Both the position numbers and the translations under genes were made by a program. Shown one piece after another: positions 5,492 to 36,613 of a DNA stretch of 39,612 nucleotides. The notes beneath the pieces are model-generated. The model was not told the DNA's origin and did no database searches. It worked only from the letters and a program-made list of their open reading frames with translations. Numbering within the stretch: the first letter of the stretch is position 1; every line of letters starts with the position of its first letter. This stretch comes from a virus, in the IMG/VR virus record IMGVR_UViG_3300027970_000889, positions 1-39,612 of that record; one strand, given 5' to 3'.

Positions 5492-6046
5492 ATGAAAATT
5501 ACTGAAGTACTAACAGAATCAAGCAAGATTTGTCCACAATGTGGAATGAGAGGTTGCACTTGCAAACCCGGAACTTGCAAATGCAAACCAAAGCCCGGCT
5601 ATCCAAAGAACATTGATGAAGCCGCTAATCCAGCACAACAAGCCGCTATTGCTATTAGTATGAAAAAGGCTGGTAAGAAGCCAAAAGATATACAAGAAGA
5701 AGATTTAGATGAGGATTGGCAAAAGGTCAACAAAAAAGACAAAACTGATGGCATGAGCAGTAAGGCTGTCAAAGCATATCGCAGAGAGAATCCAGGATCT
5801 AAACTAAAGACTGCTGTTACTACTAAGCCTTCAAAACTAAAGAAGGGTAGTAAAGCCGCTAAACGCCGTAAATCATTCTGTGCTAGAATGAGTGGAATGA
5901 AGAAGGCTCACGCAAGTGCTAAGACTAAACGAGATCCGGATAGCCCAATCAACAAAGCACTACGCAGATGGAACTGTGAAAGTGTACAACAGATGGAAAA
6001 ATTGGTAATGATTGCTGAACAGAAAATTAGAAACCTTAAGAAATAA
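5492..6046 (+). CDS. Cys-cluster and Lys-rich protein, putative packaged protein
   Basis: A 184-residue protein in three parts. Residues 1-10, MKITEVLTES, match the putative capsid-targeting signature, with LTE at 7-9. Residues 14-31 hold six cysteines (CPQCGMRGC, CTC, CKC), a likely zinc-binding knuckle. From about residue 85 to the end is a strongly basic domain (KGSKAAKRRKSFCARM, INKALRRWNC) that I associate with a phage domain of unknown function (DUF6321-like). IDE (41-43), IQE (67-69) and LDE (72-74) lie in the linker and fit prohead-protease cut sites, so maturation would release the zinc and basic parts separately. DNA binding inside the head is plausible but inferred. Confidence 0.78.
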   Translation: MKITEVLTESSKICPQCGMRGCTCKPGTCKCKPKPGYPKNIDEAANPAQQAAIAISMKKAGKKPKDIQEEDLDEDWQKVNKKDKTDGMSSKAVKAYRRENPGSKLKTAVTTKPSKLKKGSKAAKRRKSFCARMSGMKKAHASAKTKRDPDSPINKALRRWNCESVQQMEKLVMIAEQKIRNLKK

Positions 6047-6047
6047 C

Positions 6048-6725
6048 GTGAGAGCAAACGAATTCATCAGCGAAGCTATTAGCCGTAGAGACTTACTTAA
6101 AGGTGTAGCGGGTGCCGCCGCATTGGGCGCTACTGGTTTAGCTAAAGCAGGTGAATATCAAGATTTAGAAACTATAAAAAAACAACCTGACGTTTGGATG
6201 CCTAGATTCGAACAACTGCAACAACGTAGTAATGGTATGTTAGGTAAATTAATGCGAGCCGCCGGTCCAGAATGGGCACAAAGACTGACAGGGACAAAGG
6301 TTCGTGTTATGTCGAATGACCAATGGGTTCAAGGAAATGCTGACAATCGCACTGTCAGTCTTGACCTAACTGTGTTTTGGGATGCTCCTGATGCTACACT
6401 GGCATTTGCTATAGCACATGAACTGGGACACATTGCCCTAGGACACGGTTTTCAGCCTGATCTCGGGCAAGCACGTCGGGAAGAAATGGATGCTGACGAC
6501 TTTGCTATTAGGTTATGTAGGGCTTTGGGCTACAACAAAGTTGAGATGTTTAAGTTCTTGCATCAAAAACAATCTGATTACGACTTTTACAATAGTATAA
6601 CTAAACTGCCTAATAGCAGTCATCCTAGTTATGACCAACGAATCAATCGTGCAGGTCAAAAAGGATTTCAGTTGTCAAAAGGTGGAGTTAAACAAATGAA
6701 TACGCTAATGACACACTTAGCATAA
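6048..6725 (+). CDS. M48-like zinc metalloprotease with buried Tat-type signal
   Basis: The GTG at 6048 is chosen because it follows the previous stop by one base and gives the signature VRANEFISEA; an upstream in-frame ATG lies inside the preceding gene. Of 225 residues, 1-9 match the capsid-targeting signature with ISE at 7-9. SRRDLLKG (12-19), a hydrophobic stretch rich in Ala and Gly and AKA at 32-34 form a textbook twin-arginine signal. HELGH (124-128) followed by EEMDAD (146-151) is the M48 zinc and catalytic site. Cutting after residue 9 would leave the Tat signal at the new N-terminus, suggesting a protease packaged, delivered and exported to the periplasm. The enzyme class is clear; the route is inferred. 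Confidence 0.82.
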   Translation: MRANEFISEAISRRDLLKGVAGAAALGATGLAKAGEYQDLETIKKQPDVWMPRFEQLQQRSNGMLGKLMRAAGPEWAQRLTGTKVRVMSNDQWVQGNADNRTVSLDLTVFWDAPDATLAFAIAHELGHIALGHGFQPDLGQARREEMDADDFAIRLCRALGYNKVEMFKFLHQKQSDYDFYNSITKLPNSSHPSYDQRINRAGQKGFQLSKGGVKQMNTLMTHLA

Positions 6726-13083: not shown

Positions 13084-13511
13084 GCTCCGTAATAAGTTTC
13101 TTTATCTTTTTCAGAATGTTTAGGTTCGTTCCAAACATTACGATTGTTCCATTCTTGTACTTTTTCAAGTCGTTGTTGTTCAGTAAGTTCGTCACAACGG
13201 CTACTGTAATCTGGCATACGTAGCCAGTCTACTGTGCCACCGCGTGGACCATAAGTATTTTCTACTGAACGAAACACTGCCCAAGTAGCAAACACCATGC
13301 TAATGATAGCAATGTGTCCAATCATGTTGTAGCCGATAGTCAGTAGTTCACCAACGTAAAGACCAAACGCCAGACTCCAAAAACAGCCTAGTAGGATACT
13401 GAGAAAGTATTTGACATATACGGGCGCATGACGCAGAGGATTCATATTAGGGTTTATAATATTCCAAGAGGAACGACTAATCAACCAAATGAATTTGAGT
13501 ACACTAAACAT
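13080..13511 (-). CDS. Membrane protein, 143 aa
   Basis: Two hydrophobic segments (about 33-56 and 60-81, GELLTIGYNMIGHIAIISMV across the second) are followed by a hydrophilic tail of about 60 residues with YGPRGGTVDWLRMPDYSSRC and a Tyr-rich end KETYYGA. Topology is probably two-pass with a long soluble tail. Second gene of the queD operon, sharing one base with queD. Function unknown; conserved in my recollection among marine T4-like phages. Confidence 0.7.
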   Translation of the reverse strand: MFSVLKFIWLISRSSWNIINPNMNPLRHAPVYVKYFLSILLGCFWSLAFGLYVGELLTIGYNMIGHIAIISMVFATWAVFRSVENTYGPRGGTVDWLRMPDYSSRCDELTEQQRLEKVQEWNNRNVWNEPKHSEKDKETYYGA

Positions 13512-13993
13512 TATGCAAACTCCCCGTCTTCCCTATGACCACTACGTCCTGCCATATTGCTATCAGTCTCACGTACCTCTACTCTGCAACACCAAACACG
13601 TTTAGCTTCTTCACTACCACAGTTGGGTAAGAAAATTGTGTTAATGTATTCGTATAAGAAGTCAGATATACCTTCACAACCAGTACGTTCTACTTCTGTA
13701 ATCTTTGCTAGTTTCAATTCACCTAAACGCAATAGTTCATCACGCATAGGATCATCTTGTGCGACTAATAGAGTATGGTCAAACCATTCCTCTAGTTTAT
13801 CTTTGAGGGGTCGTAATCCACCGAAGTCAGTTACCCAGTTACGTGCGTCTAATGTATCAGCTTCAAACTCAAAGTGAAAACTCATAGCATAGCCATGAAT
13901 TAAATTACAATGACTGTCAGCACGCCATTGACGATATGCAACAGGACCTATTTGTCTGTATGTTTTTGTTGAAAAGAATTTTTTGTTTGCCAT
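13511..13993 (-). CDS. queD: 6-carboxytetrahydropterin synthase QueD / PTPS family
   Basis: QueD turns dihydroneopterin triphosphate (made by FolE) into 6-carboxytetrahydropterin for QueE. The 160-residue protein shows the T-fold site ADSHCNLIHGY (25-35): His 28, catalytic Cys 29 and His 33, then DFGGLRPLK (56-64), FDHTLL (71-76, catalytic His 73) and VEVRET near the C-terminus. In most family members the second motif is HGH; here it is HGY, so one zinc ligand is replaced or supplied elsewhere (His 40 is nearby). First gene of a long operon with its own promoter and a strong AGGAG site. Confidence 0.87.
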   Translation of the reverse strand: MANKKFFSTKTYRQIGPVAYRQWRADSHCNLIHGYAMSFHFEFEADTLDARNWVTDFGGLRPLKDKLEEWFDHTLLVAQDDPMRDELLRLGELKLAKITEVERTGCEGISDFLYEYINTIFLPNCGSEEAKRVWCCRVEVRETDSNMAGRSGHREDGEFA

Positions 13994-14011
13994 GAATTTC
14001 TCCTATGTTGT

Positions 14012-14040
14012 ATTATAGCATAGGCAGCAGAATTTGTAAA
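14012..14040 (-). promoter_or_regulatory. Sigma-70 promoter of the queD operon, with palindrome over the -10
   Basis: Minus strand TTTACA (14035-14040), 17-base spacer, TGC-TATAAT with the -10 at 14012-14017, an extended -10. CCTATG (14002-14007) and CATAGG (14019-14024) flank the -10 as an inverted repeat, a possible operator. The predicted leader is only about 12 bases and begins next to AGGAG (14000-14004). Confidence 0.75.
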
Positions 14041-14068
14041 GCGGGATGATGTCCAAAGACCGCTATAG

Positions 14069-14542
14069 TTATTTATTAAGAGTGTTAATAATCTGGGCAT
14101 CAGCTACCCTTTTTCTTAAACTTGAACTACTGAAACTATGGTCACGTCCATTAAACACAAGTTCAATGCCACGTTCTCCACCTTCATATCTTCCGGTAAA
14201 TTCTTTTTCTGCATATTCTACACCTAGTATGCGAACATCTACTGGTAGTATTAATAACAAGTCAATTAAGTCCTGTTCAGTTTGATAAACCACTACTTCA
14301 TCAACATAGCGACAAGCCGCTAACTGAATTTGTCGTTCTACAATACTTTGAATGGGTTTATTCTTAGTATCAGGTCTATCGATAGTTGGATCAGTTTGTA
14401 ATCCACAAATCAAGTAATCACAATGATTCTTTGCCTCACTTAACATAGCAACGTGGCCTGCGTGTAGTAAGTCAAATGTGCTAAAAGTAATACCAATCTT
14501 TTTACCTTCTTGTTTAAGTTTTTTAATGTGGTTGAAAATCAT
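14069..14542 (-). CDS. Cytidylyltransferase-like nucleotidyltransferase (TagD/RfaE-C type)
   Basis: The start MIFNHIKKLKQEGKK at 14540-14542 is chosen for its ATGA overlap with the preceding gene. The 157-residue protein has the HxGH site in FDLLHAGH (23-30) and a C-terminal SSSSLRKRV that corresponds to the ISSTxxR motif. It should join a nucleotide to a sugar phosphate or polyol phosphate such as glycerol-3-phosphate. A related protein fused to a cupin lies at 18021-18782. It is the last gene of its transcription unit; the 75 bases after it hold the queD promoter. Confidence 0.87.
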   Translation of the reverse strand: MIFNHIKKLKQEGKKIGITFSTFDLLHAGHVAMLSEAKNHCDYLICGLQTDPTIDRPDTKNKPIQSIVERQIQLAACRYVDEVVVYQTEQDLIDLLLILPVDVRILGVEYAEKEFTGRYEGGERGIELVFNGRDHSFSSSSLRKRVADAQIINTLNK

Positions 14543-14775
14543 TTTGAAAGTGCTCTCCACATTTTAGTTTGGTCATGTTCTTTTAAAAATTCTTCTTCAC
14601 CTGCAAACGTAGGACTATCAGACATAATTTCATCTAATAACCATTTTAATTTATGTAAATCTTTTTTGATTTCAAATTGATTGAAACCATCATTATAGTT
14701 ACTATGAAGTTCTACACCACTCATATAGATTTGATGATGTACACTGTTGTAATCCATTTGTTTACGAAAGCCCAT
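14539..14775 (-). CDS. Hypothetical protein, 78 aa
   Basis: A 78-residue soluble protein starting MGFRKQMDYNSVHHQIYMSG, with a helical second half (FEIKKDLHKLKWLLDEIMSD) and an acidic FAGEEEFLKEHDQTK. Overlaps both neighbours by a few bases. No known motif. Confidence 0.65.
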   Translation of the reverse strand: MGFRKQMDYNSVHHQIYMSGVELHSNYNDGFNQFEIKKDLHKLKWLLDEIMSDSPTFAGEEEFLKEHDQTKMWRALSK

Positions 14776-14972
14776 TATTGGTGTCCCTTGTGGATTAATT
14801 TATTTACAATGTTAAGGTCAAACTGTAAATTCGTAATTTTATCTTTAAGAGATTGATATTCTGGACTAGACATATCACCGTCATTAGTAACAATATCTAA
14901 ATACAAATTAGCAGCCTCTTCGTGGGCTTTTGTAATTTCTTGCTCTAGTAAAACTCGTCTATCTTTTAACAT
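14775..14972 (-). CDS. Small coiled-coil protein, 65 aa
   Basis: ATG at 14970-14972 is used (TAATG overlap with the folE stop) rather than an upstream TTG. The 65 residues are almost wholly helical with heptad-like spacing in LLEQEITKAHEEAANLYLDI and DKITNLQFDLNIVNKLI. Function unknown. Confidence 0.62.
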   Translation of the reverse strand: MLKDRRVLLEQEITKAHEEAANLYLDIVTNDGDMSSPEYQSLKDKITNLQFDLNIVNKLIHKGHQ

Positions 14973-15658
14973 TATTTGCAACCTTTATTAGCAATTTGTA
15001 AGAACTCACTACGTGCCGCGGGGTCTGATTTGAAACCTCCACCTAAACGACAAGTAACAGTACTACTACCTGTATCTTCTACACCGCGTGACTTAACACA
15101 ATAATGCTGTGCATCAATCATAACTGCAACATCTTCTGTATCAAGGATGAACTGTAAGGTGTGAAAAATTTGCTCTGTTAACCTCTCTTGGATTTGAGGT
15201 CTTTTGCTAAAATATTCTACGATACGGTTTATCTTACTAAGCCCTAATACTTTTTGTTTAGGGACATAAGCTACAGTAGCCAATCCATCGATGACTACAA
15301 AATGATGTTCGCAGTTAGATTGAACATTAACATTACGCTCTACAACCATTTCGTTATATTGCATCTTGTTGTCAACTGTTGTACATTTAGGGAATGCTTC
15401 ATAATCAAGTCCCCAAAAGATTTCATTCACATACATCTTAGCAACACGTTTGGGTGTTTCGATGAGACTATCATCATCTAGGTCTAAACCCATTGTTTCC
15501 ATAATAGCCTTGAAATGACCTTCAATCTTTTCAATGCGATCCTTACGATCACCTAAATCAATTGTGTCGTCAATTGGTGTTTCTACTCCCATATTTAATA
15601 GATGTAGATGAACTTTTTGACCCAACTCTGGATCAGTTTTTGTTTTATTATAACTCAT
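14972..15658 (-). CDS. folE: GTP cyclohydrolase I FolE
   Basis: Converts GTP to dihydroneopterin triphosphate, the first step to folate and to 7-deazaguanines. The 228-residue protein carries the family core: ETPKRVAKMYVNEIFWGL (67-84), the zinc site NCEHHF (115-120) with Cys 116, HYCVKSRGVED (185-195) with zinc ligand Cys 187, and GLSKINRIVEYF (139-150). All catalytic residues are present. With queD and queE elsewhere in the window it gives a complete route to 7-carboxy-7-deazaguanine. Preceded by a good AAGGAAGG ribosome site, a strong hairpin and a late-type promoter box. Confidence 0.94.
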   Translation of the reverse strand: MSYNKTKTDPELGQKVHLHLLNMGVETPIDDTIDLGDRKDRIEKIEGHFKAIMETMGLDLDDDSLIETPKRVAKMYVNEIFWGLDYEAFPKCTTVDNKMQYNEMVVERNVNVQSNCEHHFVVIDGLATVAYVPKQKVLGLSKINRIVEYFSKRPQIQERLTEQIFHTLQFILDTEDVAVMIDAQHYCVKSRGVEDTGSSTVTCRLGGGFKSDPAARSEFLQIANKGCK

Positions 15659-26635: not shown

Positions 26636-27208
26636 TTATTGAAAGATATGGTTATTTTTTTCTCCATAAATTTTGATATATTTTCCTGCAAGCATATCTG
26701 CCATTGCTTCAATTGGGCTACCGGGATAACTATCCCCGGGTTCAATCATATTTAGTTCACCTTGACGGACATGTACTAATTCATGGAATACTGTACGTAG
26801 TATATCTACAAGGTTACGATTTTTAGCATAGACCCAAATATTATCAGTACCCATTTGATGACCACCGGTATGATGATTAGTTTGAGCCTCTTCGGTATCC
26901 ATACTTAATTCAATAGATGGAGTAGATTTTAAATGTAATATTTTGGAGGCCCACTGAACAAACATATCAACTTCTCGTTGTAGTTCATTTTCACCAGCCT
27001 CATCTAGTTTATTTTTAATCCAACTGTCAGGGTTACGATGATATTTTTTGACAAATAAATCATGTAATGCTTTACCAGTAATTTTATGTTTACTAGCGAT
27101 TCTTCTCATTAGCCTGTCGATTGTATTATAGTCGTGCTTTTCTAAGCTAGGAAGTTTCTTTGCTAGCTCATTGGCAGGCGACTCTAATACAATCTGACTA
27201 AACCGCAT
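26636..27208 (-). CDS. HELVH zinc metallopeptidase-like protein, putative packaged protein
   Basis: A 190-residue protein. Residues 1-9 (MRFSQIVLE) fit the shared capsid-targeting signature. A helical domain with DYNTIDRLMRRIASKHKITG and LHDLFVKKY precedes LDE (68-70), a second candidate prohead-protease site. The zincin site is FHELVHVRQGE (141-151), with Glu 167 in PIEAMADMLAG as probable third ligand. This is the arrangement of compact gluzincin peptidases. It would be the second packaged peptidase in this window after the M48-like one at 6048-6725. Confidence 0.75.
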   Translation of the reverse strand: MRFSQIVLESPANELAKKLPSLEKHDYNTIDRLMRRIASKHKITGKALHDLFVKKYHRNPDSWIKNKLDEAGENELQREVDMFVQWASKILHLKSTPSIELSMDTEEAQTNHHTGGHQMGTDNIWVYAKNRNLVDILRTVFHELVHVRQGELNMIEPGDSYPGSPIEAMADMLAGKYIKIYGEKNNHIFQ

Positions 27209-27543: not shown

Positions 27544-27990
27544 TTAATTACACCAACTTTGTTTGGCTTCTCCGTAGTATTCTCTTGCAAATCCGTTTTG
27601 TATTAGCATCATTCTTAAACTTTGTCCATCAAGTAATATATCACCTAATACACGACCACCGTATTTATCCCAATCAGCGATAGCTACTTGACGTTTTTGT
27701 GCTTTACTGATAGCATTCTTTGTAAATGCAGTAGCGGCTTGACCACGTTGGTCTTCGCTTGGGCACATTGCTCTATGACCTTTTTCAGGTGTATCAACAC
27801 CAAATACACGAATACTTAGTTCTTGTTTTAAAGGTGGAGGTAAGAATGTTGCTTGAAATGCAACAGTATCCCCATCAATAATCCTAGTGATAGGAAAATC
27901 ATAGATGTTCATTGGCTTTTGCTTTTGTGCAAATGCAACACTAGTTAATGTTAGAATTACTAATATTATTATTTTTTTCATTTTTATCAT
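27544..27990 (-). CDS. Staphylococcal-nuclease-type (thermonuclease) with Sec signal peptide
   Basis: A 148-residue SNase-fold nuclease. Residues 1-21 form a Sec signal (MIKMKKIIILVILT then FAQ). Then IIDGDTV (37-43) with Asp 41, IRVFGVDTPE (60-69) with Arg 61, Asp 66 and Glu 69, and GGRVLGD (111-117) with Arg 113, so the calcium-dependent active site is complete. The domain ends with AREYYG. It would be exported and degrade DNA or RNA outside the cytoplasm, perhaps competing DNA or host DNA at lysis. The start overlaps the upstream stop as ATGA. Confidence 0.9.
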   Translation of the reverse strand: MIKMKKIIILVILTLTSVAFAQKQKPMNIYDFPITRIIDGDTVAFQATFLPPPLKQELSIRVFGVDTPEKGHRAMCPSEDQRGQAATAFTKNAISKAQKRQVAIADWDKYGGRVLGDILLDGQSLRMMLIQNGFAREYYGEAKQSWCN

Positions 27991-28533: not shown

Positions 28534-30876
28534 TTAGCTCATTATAGGTAATACTTCAATGTCTGTACCTTGATCGTACCCATTGTCTCTTAGCCATTGA
28601 ATAGCTACACGATTAGCATCACGTTGAACGTTACCTACTCCACTAAAGCGATGTACTTCTTGTCCATCAGCTAACACTTTCCAAGCACCAGTAAAGCCAC
28701 CGGCTGCACGTTGTTGTTGTATATCAGTTGTGCTACCTGGTGCGGGTGCTGGTTGATCCATACGTGATAGACCATAACCTCTTCTATCAATACCTTGTTG
28801 TAACAACCAAGCTTGAGCTTTTTCTCTTGCTTCTTCAACTGATGTAGCTTGGAATGTATAAACTATACTTTGGTCTGCTGTTCTGTATAGTTTGTAATCT
28901 TGTGTTTCACCACCTGTAGCACGAATAGGTTGTGCTAATATAGGCTCACTATCACCAACACGTCTTATACCAAACATATCTCTTGCTTGGAATGGTTGTA
29001 GTCTATGTGGTCCGTGTTCAAGGTAATCATTTAGACGAATCAATGCTTCTCTATCATTGGTAATGCCTTCAGCATCTTCTACCTTTCGGTTAGTATCCAA
29101 ATTGAATATTTCATACTTTGGTTCACTACTGTCGTCCCTTTCATACGGACGCAATGGCTTGGCAACCAATGAACTTCGATAGTCAGCCCAATTTGGATAA
29201 CCACCAATGGCTTTTTCTCTTGCTTCTTCTTTAGATAAGGCAACAACTTCTATACTAGCAGTACCACCAGGACTACGAACACTCCACCAATATTTTTTGC
29301 CGCCGGTAGTATCTTTCTTCAACTTGCGTTCTAGTTGTGCTTGCTGAACAAAGCTACGCAATGCAGCCTTAGGTAACTCACCTGCGGCATACTTAGCAAA
29401 GTATTGAATAGTGTCGGTACTATCTTTACTTGGTGCTAATAACTTATAAAGTTTTGTTAGATATTCTTTTCTATATTTCTGTGGATCAACTGCGGCATCT
29501 AATGCTACTACAAATCGTAACAACGTGTTTTCAATCTTAGGGATATCAGCATCTAACCAATCACCACCGGGACTACGAAACTCAATGTAGCCGTCTTTGG
29601 TATTGATACTTGTGTATTTGTGTGTTGCACCACTATGAACTAGTTTGCTAGCGATATCACTTAGTCCTTCTTTCATTCCATCTAACAACTTTTTAGCACT
29701 ATCTGGATTTTGTCTAATGTTATCTTTAACTTGTTTCAAAGCACTCTTACAAAAAGTGTTACCTTCACGGTCAAACTCTTTCAATATATATTCGTCACCT
29801 AACAATAATGCTAACTTAACATAGTCAAGTTTTTCTCTACTAAAGTCAGGTACACTTACATTAATATGTAATCCAGTGCTATCATTCGTGTAGCAACCTT
29901 TATCTTTCGCCCAAGCAACAACTTTGTTAAAGTCACTTATCATTTCATCTATGGGCATTGGTGGAGATACGAACTCTAATCCACCATCACTGGAATCGTC
30001 AGGCTCTAAGCTACCATCAGGCTCAACAACATAGTGACCTGCTTCTCTGCGAGCACCGTGATAACGTTCGCTTGTATTGACTGGCTTACCAATCATTCTG
30101 CTAAACTCATCACCAATATCATCAACGCTTAACTCACCACCGTTATCGGGATAATACCAATGTGGCCAACTAATATCATAGTTACTTTCAACGTCTTGCA
30201 TTGTATAAAGACCTTCACTTTCTAACCAATCGCTTTCGTCTGGCCAGTCAGTTTCATCCATCCACTTTTCACGTGCATTGTCATACAATCTTTCTTGATT
30301 GTCCCATTCTTCTTCAACAAATTGGTCACGCTTTTCTTCTACCATATCAGTAGCTTCTTTCCAGTGTTTCCAATCTTCGTTATTTTCTTTGTCTTTTAGT
30401 TTAGTTGTTTTTGCGCCGGCTTTGTTTGCCGCTTCTTTTTGTTCATCTGTTAAGCCTAACTGGTCATAAGCCTCATCTAGTGCGGCATCTTCATCAAACT
30501 CGCCTTCACTTTCAATATATTCACGTAGATAATCTTTACCTTCACTATCCCATTGTTCGCTACGTCTTTCATCAGCCCATTCGAGATAAGATTGAGTTAG
30601 TTCATCAACTAAACTTTCTACTTCTCTAAGACCATTGTAGTTACGGTCATAAAAAAAGTTGCGTATGTTTTGGATACTACCGGAACTCTCATCACTATCA
30701 TAATCAGCTTCTGGATCCCCGTCACCTTCTTCTTGTTTAACGTTTGGAACAATCATCTCAAATTCCATACCAGCCTGAGCACCAGTCTTGGCAGCTTCTT
30801 GCTTTAGTCGTGTAGGATTCATCGCTACTTCGTCAAGTACTTCTGTTTCTAATATTATAAAGTCTAGTGCTCTCAT
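28534..30876 (-). CDS. Putative amidoligase-like packaged protein, 780 aa
   Basis: Start MRALDFIILETEVLDE carries the shared signature with ILE (8-10) and LDE (14-16). AGMEFEM (35-41), DGGLEFVSPP (297-306), STGLHINVSV (333-342) and KYTSIN...IEFRSPGGDW (420-440) match, in order, the putative amidoligase family (COOH-NH2 ligase), whose members join an amine to a carboxylate using ATP. Residues 85-230 are a very acidic, Trp-rich insertion. From about 540 to 780 there are four short repeats of about 60 residues (WSVRSPGG, YEIFNLDT, YKLYRTAD, WKVLADGQ), each a strand pair plus A-rich helix. A substrate cannot be named. Expected location: virion interior, by its start. Confidence 0.72.
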   Translation of the reverse strand: MRALDFIILETEVLDEVAMNPTRLKQEAAKTGAQAGMEFEMIVPNVKQEEGDGDPEADYDSDESSGSIQNIRNFFYDRNYNGLREVESLVDELTQSYLEWADERRSEQWDSEGKDYLREYIESEGEFDEDAALDEAYDQLGLTDEQKEAANKAGAKTTKLKDKENNEDWKHWKEATDMVEEKRDQFVEEEWDNQERLYDNAREKWMDETDWPDESDWLESEGLYTMQDVESNYDISWPHWYYPDNGGELSVDDIGDEFSRMIGKPVNTSERYHGARREAGHYVVEPDGSLEPDDSSDGGLEFVSPPMPIDEMISDFNKVVAWAKDKGCYTNDSTGLHINVSVPDFSREKLDYVKLALLLGDEYILKEFDREGNTFCKSALKQVKDNIRQNPDSAKKLLDGMKEGLSDIASKLVHSGATHKYTSINTKDGYIEFRSPGGDWLDADIPKIENTLLRFVVALDAAVDPQKYRKEYLTKLYKLLAPSKDSTDTIQYFAKYAAGELPKAALRSFVQQAQLERKLKKDTTGGKKYWWSVRSPGGTASIEVVALSKEEAREKAIGGYPNWADYRSSLVAKPLRPYERDDSSEPKYEIFNLDTNRKVEDAEGITNDREALIRLNDYLEHGPHRLQPFQARDMFGIRRVGDSEPILAQPIRATGGETQDYKLYRTADQSIVYTFQATSVEEAREKAQAWLLQQGIDRRGYGLSRMDQPAPAPGSTTDIQQQRAAGGFTGAWKVLADGQEVHRFSGVGNVQRDANRVAIQWLRDNGYDQGTDIEVLPIMS

Positions 30877-32216
30877 TTTTTTAACTTATTCCATTTATCG
30901 TATATATAGTTTTTCAACTCTATTGTGTTCTTAAAACCATTGTCGTTCATATATTTAATCAACTTCACGGCACTAGCTCTATCTCCTGCGTCTGGCTTAC
31001 GTGCGTTACTTAAATCAACACCTATGTTATGATCGCCTGTTGTATCGTGATACCATAACAGGTTCTTTAGTTGTCTCTTAGCTCTATCGCTTAAGTATTC
31101 CTCTTTGTCTTTTTCAATCAACTCAATCCAAGGCTTAACAAAGTCTGTTGGCTTGCGAGTAGAACCTCTAGTTGGTTGACCCTTCAATACATCTTTAGCT
31201 TGGCTTGGCTGAACACTCTTGCGTGTATCTAACAATCTCCAAGCTTTTTCATCTGTATAAAGATATACTGGTATATCTCTTTTTTTAGCTGTTATCATTA
31301 GCTGTCGTGTTTGTGGGCTACGATATTCATTTTGTTCTTTTAGTAAGATATGTATCTCTGTAACAGGTGTCATTGGTATACTTGGCTCTTTGCTGAATAC
31401 TCTATCTTCTGATTCACGTGTTCTTGTGCCATCACTTTTTAACCAAGCACTATTCCAATAGTCTATTGGCTTAACAATGTATCTACTGTTGAACCAATCA
31501 CCGTTCATTTTAAACATTACACCACCAGTACCAACATATCTATGATAGTCACCGGTTGGTGTGCGTGTTAAACTTAAAAAGTATGGATAACCTTTTGGTG
31601 CATAATCTTCTTCGCTTGGATTACCTGTTACACTTGCAAGTTCAAAGTTGCCTGATTGTAGAATCTTTAATGCGGCACCGGTACTAGTGTAATGAAATAC
31701 TACACTAGTTGCACGTTCATTCAGTTGTTCATTTTCACTAAGTTTATTTTCAGGCTTGTCGTATGCTCTACGGTCAGTTAGTGTAAAAATCATTCCATCG
31801 TGTGGATCTTTTTTGCTATATAAGTCCCAATCAGGTAATAAACGCTTAATCATCTTAGCATATAATCCAATGCGACTATCTTCTTTGGCATTGAATGTTA
31901 TTTCTTCTACTTTATCAAGACCATATTTTTGTAAGAACTCGCGGGTAATATCAACCGCGGTAGACAATACTTCGGCTGAATTACCTGTACCTGTTGTGCC
32001 CCAAATATCCATTTCCTGTGGATCAGTATCTTTTCTACCCATCATAAACTGAACTTCCCATTTCTTAGGATTGGCATTGCGGGAAAACGCTTGCCAATGA
32101 TAAGTTCTATCGCCTACTGTAAAGTTTGCTCTAGCTTCTTCACCGCCGCGAAATTTCCATTCCCAGTTCTTTTTACCTTGCTGGAATAGTTCGTTTAAAA
32201 ACTCATTCGCTCGCAT
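30873..32216 (-). CDS. Two-domain packaged protein with ART-like C-terminal domain
   Basis: 447 residues. The start MRANEFLNELF has LNE at 7-9. Domain 1 (about 18-148) is shared with the protein at 36664-38883: WEVQF, TTGTGNS, VLSTAVDITREFLQKYG, ITFNAKEDSRIGLYAKM; the pattern resembles an acyltransferase (GNAT) fold but is not certain. LSENEQLNE (159-167) ends this domain with two further candidate protease cuts. Domain 2 begins VVFHYTSTGAALKILQSG (172-189), then YFLSLTR (212-218) and ESEDR (268-272), an order like the H-Y-...-E sites of ADP-ribosyltransferases. If so it recalls T4 Alt, a packaged ADP-ribosyltransferase. Both domain assignments are inference. Confidence 0.7.
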   Translation of the reverse strand: MRANEFLNELFQQGKKNWEWKFRGGEEARANFTVGDRTYHWQAFSRNANPKKWEVQFMMGRKDTDPQEMDIWGTTGTGNSAEVLSTAVDITREFLQKYGLDKVEEITFNAKEDSRIGLYAKMIKRLLPDWDLYSKKDPHDGMIFTLTDRRAYDKPENKLSENEQLNERATSVVFHYTSTGAALKILQSGNFELASVTGNPSEEDYAPKGYPYFLSLTRTPTGDYHRYVGTGGVMFKMNGDWFNSRYIVKPIDYWNSAWLKSDGTRTRESEDRVFSKEPSIPMTPVTEIHILLKEQNEYRSPQTRQLMITAKKRDIPVYLYTDEKAWRLLDTRKSVQPSQAKDVLKGQPTRGSTRKPTDFVKPWIELIEKDKEEYLSDRAKRQLKNLLWYHDTTGDHNIGVDLSNARKPDAGDRASAVKLIKYMNDNGFKNTIELKNYIYDKWNKLKK

Positions 32217-32656
32217 TACTCACGTTCTCGTTTTAATATAGAACGAATGAACCAAGCTTTCTTGCCGTACAAATCTTGTAGTTCGGCCATATAGTTTTCG
32301 ATACCGTGTTGATTCTCACTAGCTGCCTCATCAAACATTGCTGTTACTAACTTAAGCATTAATTCACAGTCTTGTAATGATTCAGCAAACATTAGTTCAG
32401 CACGTGGGATTTTAATTTGGTCTTCAATGATTGATAGTTCTGCGTATCTTGTTAAACTTCCGGGCGTATACGAACCTAATATTCTGATATATTCAGCAAT
32501 AGGGTCAATAGTAGCATTTACATCTTCGTACAATGTATTAAAGAAGTCGTGATATTGTGGAAAGTTGCTGCCTTCAACATTCCAATGAAAGTTCTGGCTT
32601 TTGATAGCAAAGCTTTGTGTACTAGCTAATAGTACTTTTAGATTATCTGATAACAT
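32216..32656 (-). CDS. dps: Dps-like ferritin-family DNA protection protein
   Basis: A 146-residue four-helix protein with the Dps signature NFHWNVEGSNFPQYHDFF (22-39) and DPIAEYIRILG (51-61). Ferroxidase ligands are kept with correct spacing: His 24, His 36, Asp 51 and Glu 55; the usual Asp four residues after the second His is Asn 40. Dps oxidises iron with peroxide and, in many bacteria, coats DNA; this copy lacks the basic tail used for DNA binding. It overlaps neighbours by one base and sits between two large virion-type genes, so it may be a virion or late product. Confidence 0.88.
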   Translation of the reverse strand: MLSDNLKVLLASTQSFAIKSQNFHWNVEGSNFPQYHDFFNTLYEDVNATIDPIAEYIRILGSYTPGSLTRYAELSIIEDQIKIPRAELMFAESLQDCELMLKLVTAMFDEAASENQHGIENYMAELQDLYGKKAWFIRSILKRERE

Positions 32657-35550
32657 TATTGTCCTTGCTTTAATAGTTCTTGTGCTTTCTCAACACTAAT
32701 CATAGGTCTTGGATGTGTGCCATTTACCACGCTCTGTAGATATTCTTTACTAAAGCCTTTTGGTGCTTCTGCTTTTGTAGGAGTTTGAGTTTGTACAGGT
32801 TGTGTGATATTGGGTTTGCCTGTTAAACGATTAATATTAGGATCATCACCGGGTGTAACTCTAGCATTAGCGCCGGCTGCTCCTAGTGCCATTGCCCCGG
32901 TTAATGCAGCCGCACCTAATTTCTGTTTCCAATTCTCGTCTACATTTTCATTAGAGTTTTTCTTTGTATTAACATTGATAGCTTTACCACTACGTTCTGG
33001 ATTAGGATCTTCTCTACGCTTACGTTGAGCGGCACTAGCACGACCTTTTTTACCTAGACTGTGAGCTTTTGCTTGTGGCAAACATTTTGGTTTACCTTCT
33101 CCGGGTTCTCTAGCACAAGGACCTTTAATATTGCCTTTAGTATCCATACGAACCCATTTTTCTTTATTGAACCAATCGTGCAAACTTTCATCCGCTTGTT
33201 CAATACCTTCTAGTATAGAACTTTCATTTTTCTTTCCACCGTTGCCCCAATTGCTTGCACCTTTTTTACGACACTTTACTAATGCACCACTGGCATAAGC
33301 ACTTGGCCATACTTTATAACGGCTCTTTACTTTATAGTAGCAAGCATCTTTCTTTTCGTTCATTATCATTTCACTGAACATTGGGCCATTACAATGTGGA
33401 CATTTTTCTTCCGTTATATCTTGCTCATATACATTCTTATCATACACAATACCTTCATCGTCATCGCCAATTAAATCAATAATTTTTAAGCTGTTAGTGT
33501 CACTATTATACTCTAAGTCAGGTAATCCGCGATATTTACTCATTGGTTTTTTAGAGTCATACCATGCTTCTCTTGCAATAGAATGTAAAAATAAAATATC
33601 CATGTCATCTTCAAATATAGAAGTTTCATAACCAAGTGCTTTAAATTGTGCTACATTTTGATTAAATATTTTAGTTTGTTCTTGTTGACTTAATTGTGCC
33701 ATTTGCCCTTGTGCGGCTGTTGGTACATAAGAACCTTCCCAAAATATTTCTAATGCAGTTTCACTTAATGCTTTAAGTTGTATGATGAGGTTTTTATTCA
33801 AAGGATTACGAGGTTGCATTGGAATAACCTCCCCTTCTTCTACACTTTCTTTTGGCACACAGTTGGGAACTTGTTTACCGCCCTTACTTTTCATACCTAC
33901 TTGCTTATGCGTATCCCAACATTTTTCATCTAGCTGTTCTTCATTAGTATTTTTTACACAGTTAGGATATGTTTTGCCAAACATTTTCTTGTTACCCTCT
34001 TTGTGATAACCTTTCCAACAGGCTTCATCTAAATTAGTATGGTCTACGTGTGTTTCACACATACCGCAGTCTTCACATACCATTTCCATTTCAATACTTT
34101 CATTGTGCTTTTTCTTACCAGCACAATGAGCCTTTTGACTGAAACCTTTAGGATGACTACAGTTGATACTACTCTTATACTTTTGACTCCAACCTTCATC
34201 AACACCTTTTGGTTTAGCATATGCGGCTTTGTTAGTCAATAATCTGTTCTTAACATACTCTAATGCTTTGTCTAGTTTTCTATTCAACTCAACATAGTTA
34301 TCTCTTGCACCATCACGTGCTAACATACTTGTATCAACACCGGCTTCAATGTTTGGTGTCAACAGACCCTTCTTATCAAGCTTTTGAACTAAGTTATCTA
34401 ATATACCTTGTTTTTCAATAGCTTTATCAAGTTGGCTTAATCTTGCTTTTAGTTCAGAATGTTTCTCACCTGGCATTGCTACCATAGGGGTAGATGTAGC
34501 TCTTTGTCTAAAATTAGGTTCTCTTGCTGTGAACTTAGAAACAGTATTTTGTTTAAAATCTTTTTCCCACTGCTCTAAATCAGCTATACGTTGTTGTTCA
34601 AGTTGTTGTTTAACTTGCTGTAATGCTTCTAATGATTTAGATTTTAGTTCATCACCCAAACTTTCTGGCAGTGGTTTATCTAACTTCTTTACATTAGGTT
34701 TACTTGGTGGATAGTAAGCTGACTTAGCTCTATTTTTTGTTCCTAATATTTGAGGATTGTTTACTCTAGGGTAAGTAGATTTGAATGTTTTTTGTTCTTC
34801 ATCATCTATATTTTTTGTTAATGCATTAATAACTCTTTGTTGTGTATTTTCATCTAATTGTGTTATTAATGATTTAGCTTTTTTATATACAACATTGATA
34901 TCTTCTTTGACAGTTTTTGTATCATTGGCAAACTGTTTCTTAGTTGCTTTAACAATACCACTGAAACGTTTATCAGCTTTCTTATAGTCACCTGCTAAAT
35001 CAGCTTTACCTGCATCTAATGCCGCCGCTGTTTTATATTGACTTAATTTCTCATTAGAGATTTCATCAAGTTGTTCTTCACTAACACCTTGACCTAATTG
35101 TTGTAAGTCACTTGTTAATACATCTTGCGTAACTTCACCTATACCTTTTGAAATTGTGATGCGAGAATATTTACGATCCTTACTCATAGCAACTACTTTT
35201 GATGGTTGTCCAAAATACTTAACGGTGTCACCAGTCTGTATATTTTTAATAGAAACACCACCAAGATTAACCGGCTTATCACCTGCAAAGTTACCTTGAT
35301 CTCCCCATGGATCATCTATACCTTCATTAGTACCAGTTGCTAATCTATCATGGTCTGCATCACGTTTTTGTTTTTGGCTTAGTTGATACATCTTTTTAGA
35401 GTATGCAACATCGTCATCAAATGTATCATCTTCTTGTGAACGATAGCTGGAACGACTTCTGCCACTACTAGCAACGGCATTTTGGTAATCCCAATCACTG
35501 TCGTAGTTATGTGGGTTGACTTCGTTTAGACCTTTAAGAATTTTGCTCAT
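32656..35550 (-). CDS. Large modular internal-virion-type polyprotein, 964 aa
   Basis: A very long multi-part protein. The start MSKILKGLNE has LNE at 8-10. Further [LIV]-x-E sites lie at domain borders: 161-163, 232-234, 450-452, 507-509, 540-542, 712-714, 870-872. Modules: a Gly/Ser-rich linker; a small beta domain (IQTGDTVKYFGQPSK); a helical LDEISNEKLSQY module (161-210) also found in the next gene; coiled coil (295-440); a PKGFSQKAHCAGKKK box; two repeats of CW...GK...PNCV (511-532, 544-565); a CPHC zinc knuckle; DACYYKVKSRYKVWPS and WVRMDTKGNIKGPC boxes (DUF5872-like). Residues 873-896 (NWKQK then a hydrophobic Ala/Gly run ending ANA) look like a signal peptide freed by a cut after VDE. 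No enzyme seen. Confidence 0.75.
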   Translation of the reverse strand: MSKILKGLNEVNPHNYDSDWDYQNAVASSGRSRSSYRSQEDDTFDDDVAYSKKMYQLSQKQKRDADHDRLATGTNEGIDDPWGDQGNFAGDKPVNLGGVSIKNIQTGDTVKYFGQPSKVVAMSKDRKYSRITISKGIGEVTQDVLTSDLQQLGQGVSEEQLDEISNEKLSQYKTAAALDAGKADLAGDYKKADKRFSGIVKATKKQFANDTKTVKEDINVVYKKAKSLITQLDENTQQRVINALTKNIDDEEQKTFKSTYPRVNNPQILGTKNRAKSAYYPPSKPNVKKLDKPLPESLGDELKSKSLEALQQVKQQLEQQRIADLEQWEKDFKQNTVSKFTAREPNFRQRATSTPMVAMPGEKHSELKARLSQLDKAIEKQGILDNLVQKLDKKGLLTPNIEAGVDTSMLARDGARDNYVELNRKLDKALEYVKNRLLTNKAAYAKPKGVDEGWSQKYKSSINCSHPKGFSQKAHCAGKKKHNESIEMEMVCEDCGMCETHVDHTNLDEACWKGYHKEGNKKMFGKTYPNCVKNTNEEQLDEKCWDTHKQVGMKSKGGKQVPNCVPKESVEEGEVIPMQPRNPLNKNLIIQLKALSETALEIFWEGSYVPTAAQGQMAQLSQQEQTKIFNQNVAQFKALGYETSIFEDDMDILFLHSIAREAWYDSKKPMSKYRGLPDLEYNSDTNSLKIIDLIGDDDEGIVYDKNVYEQDITEEKCPHCNGPMFSEMIMNEKKDACYYKVKSRYKVWPSAYASGALVKCRKKGASNWGNGGKKNESSILEGIEQADESLHDWFNKEKWVRMDTKGNIKGPCAREPGEGKPKCLPQAKAHSLGKKGRASAAQRKRREDPNPERSGKAINVNTKKNSNENVDENWKQKLGAAALTGAMALGAAGANARVTPGDDPNINRLTGKPNITQPVQTQTPTKAEAPKGFSKEYLQSVVNGTHPRPMISVEKAQELLKQGQ

Positions 35551-35551
35551 A

Positions 35552-36613
35552 TTACTTTTTACTAGTTATTTTATCTACTGCACGGTCAATACCAGCCTGA
35601 CGTTTTTCAATCTTAGCATCTTTCTCAAAACGACTTGCAGGTAATTTTGAATTGAATGCAGATGTAGCTACCCTAGCACCTTTTTGAAACTGTGTATTAC
35701 CTTTACGGTTTGCCATATCACCGGCTGCTGATTTTACATAACTTCCTAATGCTTGCGGGCTTAACTCGTCAAGTTGACTTTCACCCATCTCACCATTAGT
35801 CATAGCACCAGTAGTGCCTAAACTTTCAGTAGCACCTTGCTTACTATATGCATCAATCATTTGCCTAATATAGAAATTATAAAAACCACGACGGCTATTG
35901 TATTCTCTATCTCCTAGTACAGTCTTTAGTGCCTTTACAGCATCACCTACTTCTGCACCACGCATTATTTTTAATGCGTCAGTAACAAGTGAGTCACCTC
36001 TTTGATTGTTTTCTGTAACACTTCGTAGTTGTTTACCTTCTAGGTATTCACGTACTGTGTTTAGATAGTCATTGGCTTTGATAATCTTTTCTTGTACCCA
36101 GCCTTCTAAGCCTTCTTCTTCACTAACACTTCTTACGATGTTATAGATTTTCTCAGCGTTCTTACCTGCACTGAATAAATCACTCACAGCCATTTCTACT
36201 TCGTGGTCTGTTCTATCTTTATCGTGTGATATAAAACCTGTCTTTACACTACGCCCTTGACCTGGCACAACGATTAAGTCTTGTTCGCTTAAGTCAGCTT
36301 CATTGACTGGTGGAGTTGGCTTTTGAGGTTGCTTGCTCATAGAAGCTTTCATTTCTTCTCTAGTTTTACCGTATTTCTTTTGAAATTCAGCTGGCTTCAT
36401 AGTCTGTAAGTCATACGCTAAATCTTTCATTGCGGCTTCGTTTAAGCTATTAGCAAATGGCTTGCTAGTTTTCTTACCTTTAAGTAGGTTGCCTACTTTA
36501 TTGCCACCGTAAACACTTGGGTTACGACTTTGCATTTTGACGAAACCGTGTTCTGTAGGTGCTATTGAACCTGCTGTTGTACTTGTTTCTTGGATAATTT
36601 GACTGATTTTCAT
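35552..36613 (-). CDS. Putative internal capsid / scaffold-associated protein, 353 aa
   Basis: Start MKISQIIQETSTT has IQE at 7-9. A further LNE lies at 57-59 (NSLNEAAMKD) and SQLDE near the C-terminal module. The middle (about 136-195) is helical: DHEVEMAVSDLFSAGKNAEK then WVQEKIIKANDYLNTVREYL, a pattern I associate with marine T4-like phage proteins of unknown role. The C-terminal LDELSPQALGSYVKSAAGD module repeats one in the 964-residue protein. Preceded by a GATAAATAC box and a GGGA site, so probably a late gene. Confidence 0.7.
   Translation of the reverse strand: MKISQIIQETSTTAGSIAPTEHGFVKMQSRNPSVYGGNKVGNLLKGKKTSKPFANSLNEAAMKDLAYDLQTMKPAEFQKKYGKTREEMKASMSKQPQKPTPPVNEADLSEQDLIVVPGQGRSVKTGFISHDKDRTDHEVEMAVSDLFSAGKNAEKIYNIVRSVSEEEGLEGWVQEKIIKANDYLNTVREYLEGKQLRSVTENNQRGDSLVTDALKIMRGAEVGDAVKALKTVLGDREYNSRRGFYNFYIRQMIDAYSKQGATESLGTTGAMTNGEMGESQLDELSPQALGSYVKSAAGDMANRKGNTQFQKGARVATSAFNSKLPASRFEKDAKIEKRQAGIDRAVDKITSKK

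Follow-up and report, generated by a model that had tools for sequence, protein, structure and literature searches.

The stretch of DNA analysed here (IMG/VR virus record IMGVR_UViG_3300027970_000889, positions 1 to 39,612; hereafter the window) is a 39.6 kb virus fragment. On its minus strand, an open reading frame (ORF) running from 35550 to 32656 encodes a modular protein of 964 residues, a candidate head-cargo polyprotein. The protein is identical over its full length in two contigs, and all remaining relatives match it piecewise, with the same small modules recurring in changing order across viral contigs and cultured cyanophages. Relatives are encoded on viral contigs of up to 524 kb, and the phage collection has 369 records with relatives, almost entirely of Synechococcus and Prochlorococcus cyanophages, where the gene is located between gp16 and gp17 (T4-GC 119). 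A Pfam scan of the 964-residue protein gave one sub-threshold chance match only, an NCBIfam scan of eight proteins gave no match, and Rfam and tRNA scans found nothing.

With relatives placed side by side, each module is preceded by the tripeptide [LIVM]-x-E regardless of the upstream sequence. The chain (all coordinates on the minus strand) opens with MSKILKGLNE (residues 1-10, 35521-35550), a capsid-targeting-like N-terminal propeptide with the related forms MSNILKGIINE and MSSILRGILQE. The N-terminal region that follows (residues 11-163, 35062-35520) closes with the joint SEEQLDE, and the next module, ISNEKLSQYKTAAALDAGKADLAGDYKKADKRFSGIVKATKK (residues 164-234, 34849-35061), retains the motif in 19 of the 22 contexts whose upstream sequence is unrelated. 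Residues 235-296 (34663-34848) end at a joint where LPE is followed by SLGDELKS, and a helical region occupies residues 297-452 (34195-34662). The module GWSQKYKSSINCSHPKGFSQKAHC with CEDCGMCETH (residues 453-509, 34024-34194) keeps the joint E in every unrelated context. It is followed by two CW...PNCV modules, each after LDE (residues 510-542, 33925-34023, and residues 543-572, 33835-33924), by a GEVIP... region seen in near-identical relatives only (residues 573-714, 33409-33834), and by a CPHC knuckle after ITE with a terminal MNE (residues 715-732, 33355-33408); the repeats and the knuckle are as first described. The last three modules are KKDACYYKVKSRYKVWPSAYASGALVKC, which is DUF5872-like (residues 733-781, 33208-33354), the basic module HDWFNKEKWVRMDTKGNIKGPC after ILE (residues 782-872, 32935-33207), and, directly after VDE and close to the C-terminus, a signal-peptide-like segment NWKQKLGAAALTGAMALGAAGANA (residues 873-896, with the cut placed before RV) together with its passenger (residues 873-964, 32659-32934).

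The original prediction held that this protein is a polyprotein cut at [LIV]-x-E sites. All eight tripeptides that it listed are present where it placed them: LNE at residues 8-10, LDE at 161-163 and 232-234, VDE at 450-452, LDE at 507-509 and 540-542, ITE at 712-714, and VDE at 870-872. The list turned out to be a selection from 18 [LIV]xE tripeptides (20 when M is admitted) that leaves out several more joints. Nine joints, at residues 10, 163, 452, 509, 542, 714, 732, 781, and 872, keep the motif after unrelated upstream sequence. The joint at 296 recurs more weakly, the listed site at 234 and the one at 572 occur in near-identical relatives only, and the motifs at 139, 216, 493, 499, 597, 647, and 709 show scant or zero recurrence; most of these last are probably chance motifs within modules. 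By shuffling, 11.1 [LIV]xE were expected against the 18 found (p 0.021), and 7.5 [LI]xE against 11 (p 0.12).

The prediction also implied that the motif should be enriched in linkers relative to domains, and a strong enrichment was found. The module W[ST]xKYKSSINCxxPKGFSQKAHC (the SINC module) occurs in 87 distinct upstream contexts, with E at P1 in all of them, L/I/V/M at P3 in 92%, and no further strong conservation. With more loci included, the counts were 101/101 for E at P1 and 92/101 for L/I/V/M at P3; after similar upstreams were collapsed, E was present in 64/64 contexts and the full motif in 59/64. As a background, L/I/V/M stands two positions before 30% of all Glu residues in these proteins. 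At P3, 59 of the 64 unrelated contexts have V, L, M, or I, which differs from the S/A-x-E motif of the phiKZ type. Other modules follow the same pattern: CW comes after LDE, ISNEKL mostly after LDE or LNE, and the Ala-rich hydrophobic module after VDE, LDE, or similar.

Homology breakpoints fall at the same positions. Among BLAST matches in the 964-residue protein, 55% of starts and 45% of ends lie no more than 4 residues from [LIVM]xE, compared with 17% for circularly shifted control sites, and 0 of about 940 shifts attains the observed value. Replacing the E of [LIVM]xE by D, K, Q, N, S, G, or A gave seven control motifs, all of which were flat near breakpoints. When 122 non-redundant relatives were compared all against all and every X.Z pattern near the 820 breakpoints was ranked, L.E came 1st, V.E 2nd, I.E 7th, and M.E 9th; these breakpoint results are rankings rather than exact probabilities because the matches are not independent. 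A comparison of DUF6321 copies is suggestive only, because the site lies within the domain and the groups are clades: forms in which the domain is N-terminal have A or Q in 20/24 cases and E in 2, whereas embedded forms have GGLNE in 50/68. DUF6321 also stands alone, as an 84-residue protein lacking the Glu of the embedded copies, in small Pelagibacter and Prochlorococcus phages (L293 2435-2689 and L294 2429-2683).

The joint motif is shared with the N-termini. In 26 of its 87 contexts the SINC module is N-terminal, after a short targeting-like peptide, and in 61 it is internal; the peptide is exactly nine residues long in 20/26 (e.g. MRANEFITE-A, MKINEVITE-E, and MKAREFVTE-K). In T4, the first ten residues of IPIII serve as the capsid-targeting sequence, which gp21 removes after L/I-x-E (PMC9026906). 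MSKILKGLNE has the form of such a T4-type propeptide, which spans about 10-20 N-terminal residues and ends in L/I-x-E. Across the window, 9/40 ORFs carry the motif E at residue 9-11, versus 1.6 in shuffles, and five of them lie within a cluster at 26.6-36.6 kb.

Four related contigs of at least 333 kb were searched, and each of them has a Peptidase S77 gene (the gp21 family). In the three giant contigs examined, the gp23 homologue has QLLAE then SSAG at the expected T4-type maturation site, and cyanophage S-SM2 gp23 has MIAE then QPTN (QPTNAVGNGGYTS) at its presumed one, these positions being assigned by analogy to T4. S-SM2 protein 108 (L074 14674-15102) joins MKTLKQFLKE to a sequence that is almost identical to the N-terminus of mature gp23, plus a SIDC module; shuffling therefore occurred exactly at the presumed maturation site.

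Segments resembling signal peptides are also buried behind the motif. A general scan found them after 73/8557 motif occurrences (0.85%), versus 0.4-0.8% for other motifs, a modest excess because chance hydrophobic segments dilute the signal. The informative test was a strict one for the twin-arginine translocation (Tat) signal, defined as RRx[FLM]-hydrophobic-AxA. It gave 19 distinct cases, 16 of them internal and reaching as far as residue 916 of 1445, and [LIVM]xE stands directly before 13/16 of the internal signals, with an E no more than 6 residues before 15/16. Of nine chains scanned with the Pfam TAT_signal model, most match at the Tat positions, below the curated cut-off. In an N-terminal case, MRATEFVTE is followed by MDRRGFLRGLAG. 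Modules found after internal signal peptides include TonB_2 (2.7e-19), GH19 (3e-15), M48, and a sub-threshold HD_4; the TonB_2, GH19, and M48 passengers suit the periplasm. The TonB match is a C-terminal domain (PF13103) that follows a Tat signal at residue 869 of a 1352-residue chain (L067:4723-8778). In the window itself, the ORF at 6048-6725 (plus strand) has MRANEFISE directly before a Tat-like signal, AISRRDLLKGVAGAAALGATGLA, and an M48 peptidase; we propose a GTG start at 6048 in preference to TTG at 6012.

The modularity, the joint motif, the capsid-targeting-like N-termini, the protease of the large relatives, the buried signal peptides, and the detection of cyanophage relatives in virions together point to the 964-residue protein being a capsid-cargo polyprotein for the prohead protease, a variant of the T4-type internal head proteins, and we give this reading a probability of about 0.72. 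Its first ten residues would act as a T4-like capsid-targeting sequence and draw the whole chain into the prohead core. There the phage's own gp21-type (S77) prohead protease would cut after [LIVM]-x-E and free small modules, mostly Cys-rich or basic, which would enter the next cell along with the DNA. Protease sites at the joints most simply explain the P1/P3 pattern, its shared use at targeting peptides and capsid-protein sites, and signal peptides that are useless unless freed, and cutting at the joints very probably happens. A cargo role for the pieces, as opposed to their loss as core fragments, is also likely, though with less certainty than the cutting.

The final module, like comparable modules of relatives, opens with a signal peptide of the Sec or Tat type that would be active only once N-terminal. 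Since such a signal would function only after the cut, export of the passengers would take place in the freshly infected host. More tentatively, we propose a fuller scheme in which prohead cutting unmasks Sec and Tat signals, so that passengers stay in the producer cell as long as they are internal, travel in the head, and in the next host are exported to the periplasm, the place of action of the TonB-like, peptidase, and peptidoglycan-hydrolase domains; new cargo would be added by recombination at in-frame seams that double as protease sites. We hold this scheme to be possible, with somewhat less than even odds.

Several observations weigh against the cargo polyprotein. The genome-wide count of motif density, offered with the original prediction as a check, failed to discriminate: genes with targeting-like N-termini carry 1.71 motifs per 100 residues and the other window ORFs 1.59. 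Bulk density in the gene group of the 964-residue protein is thus ordinary, bulk counting lends the claim no support, and it is the position of the motif that decides. The p values are indicative only, because the metagenomic contexts are partly related. Some joints of cultured cyanophages retain E alone (HAE, QTE, TNE), without the full motif. An AlphaFold model of the whole chain, built with 19 relatives, is of low confidence (mean predicted local distance difference test score 43.7), so domain borders are not confirmable from it. No protease gene is present in the window or in the near-identical contigs, all of which are fragments; for the window, this accounts for its lack of one.

Two cyanophage relatives are on record in virions. 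Cyanophage S-CREM2 gp137, encoded between gp16 and gp17 and carrying DUF6321 after MNE, is represented in virions by four peptides covering 4.1% of the protein, according to Table 3 of the S-CREM2 paper (PMC10665884). Such low coverage, a further point against the cargo polyprotein, is compatible with cutting and retention of small pieces, or with the loss of most fragments. S-SCSM1 gp029 contains several modules and is recorded as a 'virion protein'; the S-SCSM1 paper reports 45 proteins by mass spectrometry, and the text consulted does not name gp029. S-SZBM1 'virion structural protein' 190 was considered as a relative and rejected, as it is not a module protein.

The loss of most fragments is what would be expected of a sacrificial core protein, which would undergo the same cuts and help to build the prohead, as T4 gp22, gp67, and gp68 do, with most fragments leaving before DNA entry and no role in the next host. 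T4 core proteins are indeed cut to many fragments that mostly exit (PMC9026906), and the peptide coverage of S-CREM2 gp137 agrees with this. The modules, in contrast, retain conserved Cys patterns, some chains include enzyme or periplasmic domains with signal peptides, and the solitary DUF6321 of small podoviruses indicates that a module can function by itself. We also know of no scaffold proteins that are module-shuffled like these chains. We consider a sacrificial core unlikely, though it is the best of the alternatives.

Less probable still is that no cutting takes place and the motif is a signature of flexible linkers or of recombination seams in an ordinary multidomain structural protein. 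Seams of this sort do exist in relatives. The joint peptide QGVAEG is encoded by an identical 17-bp DNA, CAAGGTGTGGCGGAAGG, with unrelated flanks in many viral contigs; this conservation exceeds codon usage, with GTG and GCG at 80% in the seam versus 25% and 9% elsewhere in the same proteins, and points to recombination there. The seam is in frame in 150/150 distinct contexts and was found in at least 120 IMG/VR stretches, up to 4 times per chain (examples are L452, 1550-2634, L406, L441, and L465); it is absent from the 39,612-nt window. At the other joints (QLDE, SVAE, GVSE), synonymous positions vary freely, and therefore the peptide is what selection keeps. The absence of enrichment when E is replaced, the targeting-like N-terminal peptides that end in the same residues, and Tat signals that would be useless hundreds of residues from the start also speak for cutting. 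The QGVAEG seam suggests that modules are gained by recombination at such places, in addition to the selection that acts on the cut motif. Internal translation starts that yield the modules as separate proteins are very improbable and were rejected for most joints: a Met does lie just ahead of RR in several buried Tat segments (ADMNRRGFLKG), but the segments DLSRRGF, DISRRGF, and AIDRRGF and the main modules have none at the joint, and no obvious ribosome-binding site precedes the Met positions among the sequences inspected.

The proposed cargo polyprotein has several partial precedents. Phages usually encode each head-cargo protein in a gene of its own. With T4 IPI-III and Alt it shares the short N-terminal propeptide ending in [LI]-x-E, an S77 protease (in large relatives), and the presumed ejection of head cargo; there, however, each targeting peptide serves a single protein, whereas here about ten modules make up one chain, every joint has a site, modules are exchanged between chains, and signal peptides are buried after joints. 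T4 gp22, gp67, and gp68 likewise carry many gp21 sites per chain, to which the 9-10 supported joints of the 964-residue chain correspond, but their fragments mostly exit the head and do not amount to conserved domains that are shuffled as a set. The inner-head proteins of the giant phages phiKZ, 201phi2-1, and SPN3US also have Glu at P1 and several cuts per precursor (PMC10052503, PMC9026906), but there the motif is S/A-x-E and long discarded propeptides precede one mature protein, with no string of cargo modules. A further likeness is to cyanophage T4-GC 119 (Syn9 gp114, S-SM2, Bellamy gp123, S-CREM2 gp137), which shares the DUF6321, CW, ACYHKVKSRYSVWPS, and SIDC modules and [LIVM]-x-E at many joints and has members found in virions; these proteins are annotated merely as hypothetical or virion proteins, and their joints are less strict.

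Giant proteins of crAss-like phages have been proposed to be polyproteins that are cut and delivered, with a different protease and gene set. In the open literature searched, we found no polyprotein reading of the T4-GC 119 proteins, no description of a modular head-cargo polyprotein, and nothing relevant on Tat signals in head proteins or on crAss-like polyproteins; DUF6321, DUF5872, and QGVAEG gave unrelated algal-virus work only. If the proposal is true, many unassigned protein families of marine and freshwater phages (DUF6321, DUF5872-like, phrog_727, and others) would be explained as exchangeable injected modules, cargo could be predicted by cutting sequences in silico after [LIVM]-x-E at conserved joints, and the buried Tat and Sec signals would represent a new way of timing export, which would be silent in the producing cell and switched on in the following one.

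Other window genes have the same organization, and the sites originally named in three of them stand. A second modular protein (35552-36613, minus strand) begins with MKISQIIQE and has supported joints at residues 105/110, 165, and 201. The protein at 30873-32216 (minus) begins with MRANEFLNE and has the joint LNE then RATSVVFHYT at residue 167, a boundary that is N-terminal in other contigs (MRANEFLIE then RATSVVFHYT in contig G003). On the plus strand, the protein at 5492-6046 starts with MKITEVLTE and a Cys-rich module, followed by a AANPAQQAAIAI module after IDE and a DUF6321 module after LDE; its joints at residues 43 and 74 are supported. Two further minus-strand proteins have N-termini of this kind, MRALDFIILE then TEVLDE before an amidoligase-like domain (28534-30876) and MRFSQIVLE (26636-27208).

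Amid this cluster of genes with targeting peptides, a staphylococcal-nuclease-like protein (27544-27990, minus) has an apparent ordinary N-terminal signal peptide. A Ferritin/Dps-like protein without a targeting peptide (32216-32656, minus) sits between two of the modular proteins. Elsewhere in the window, PTPS/QueD-like and GTP cyclohydrolase I genes (13511-15658, minus) suggest a 7-deazaguanine pathway.

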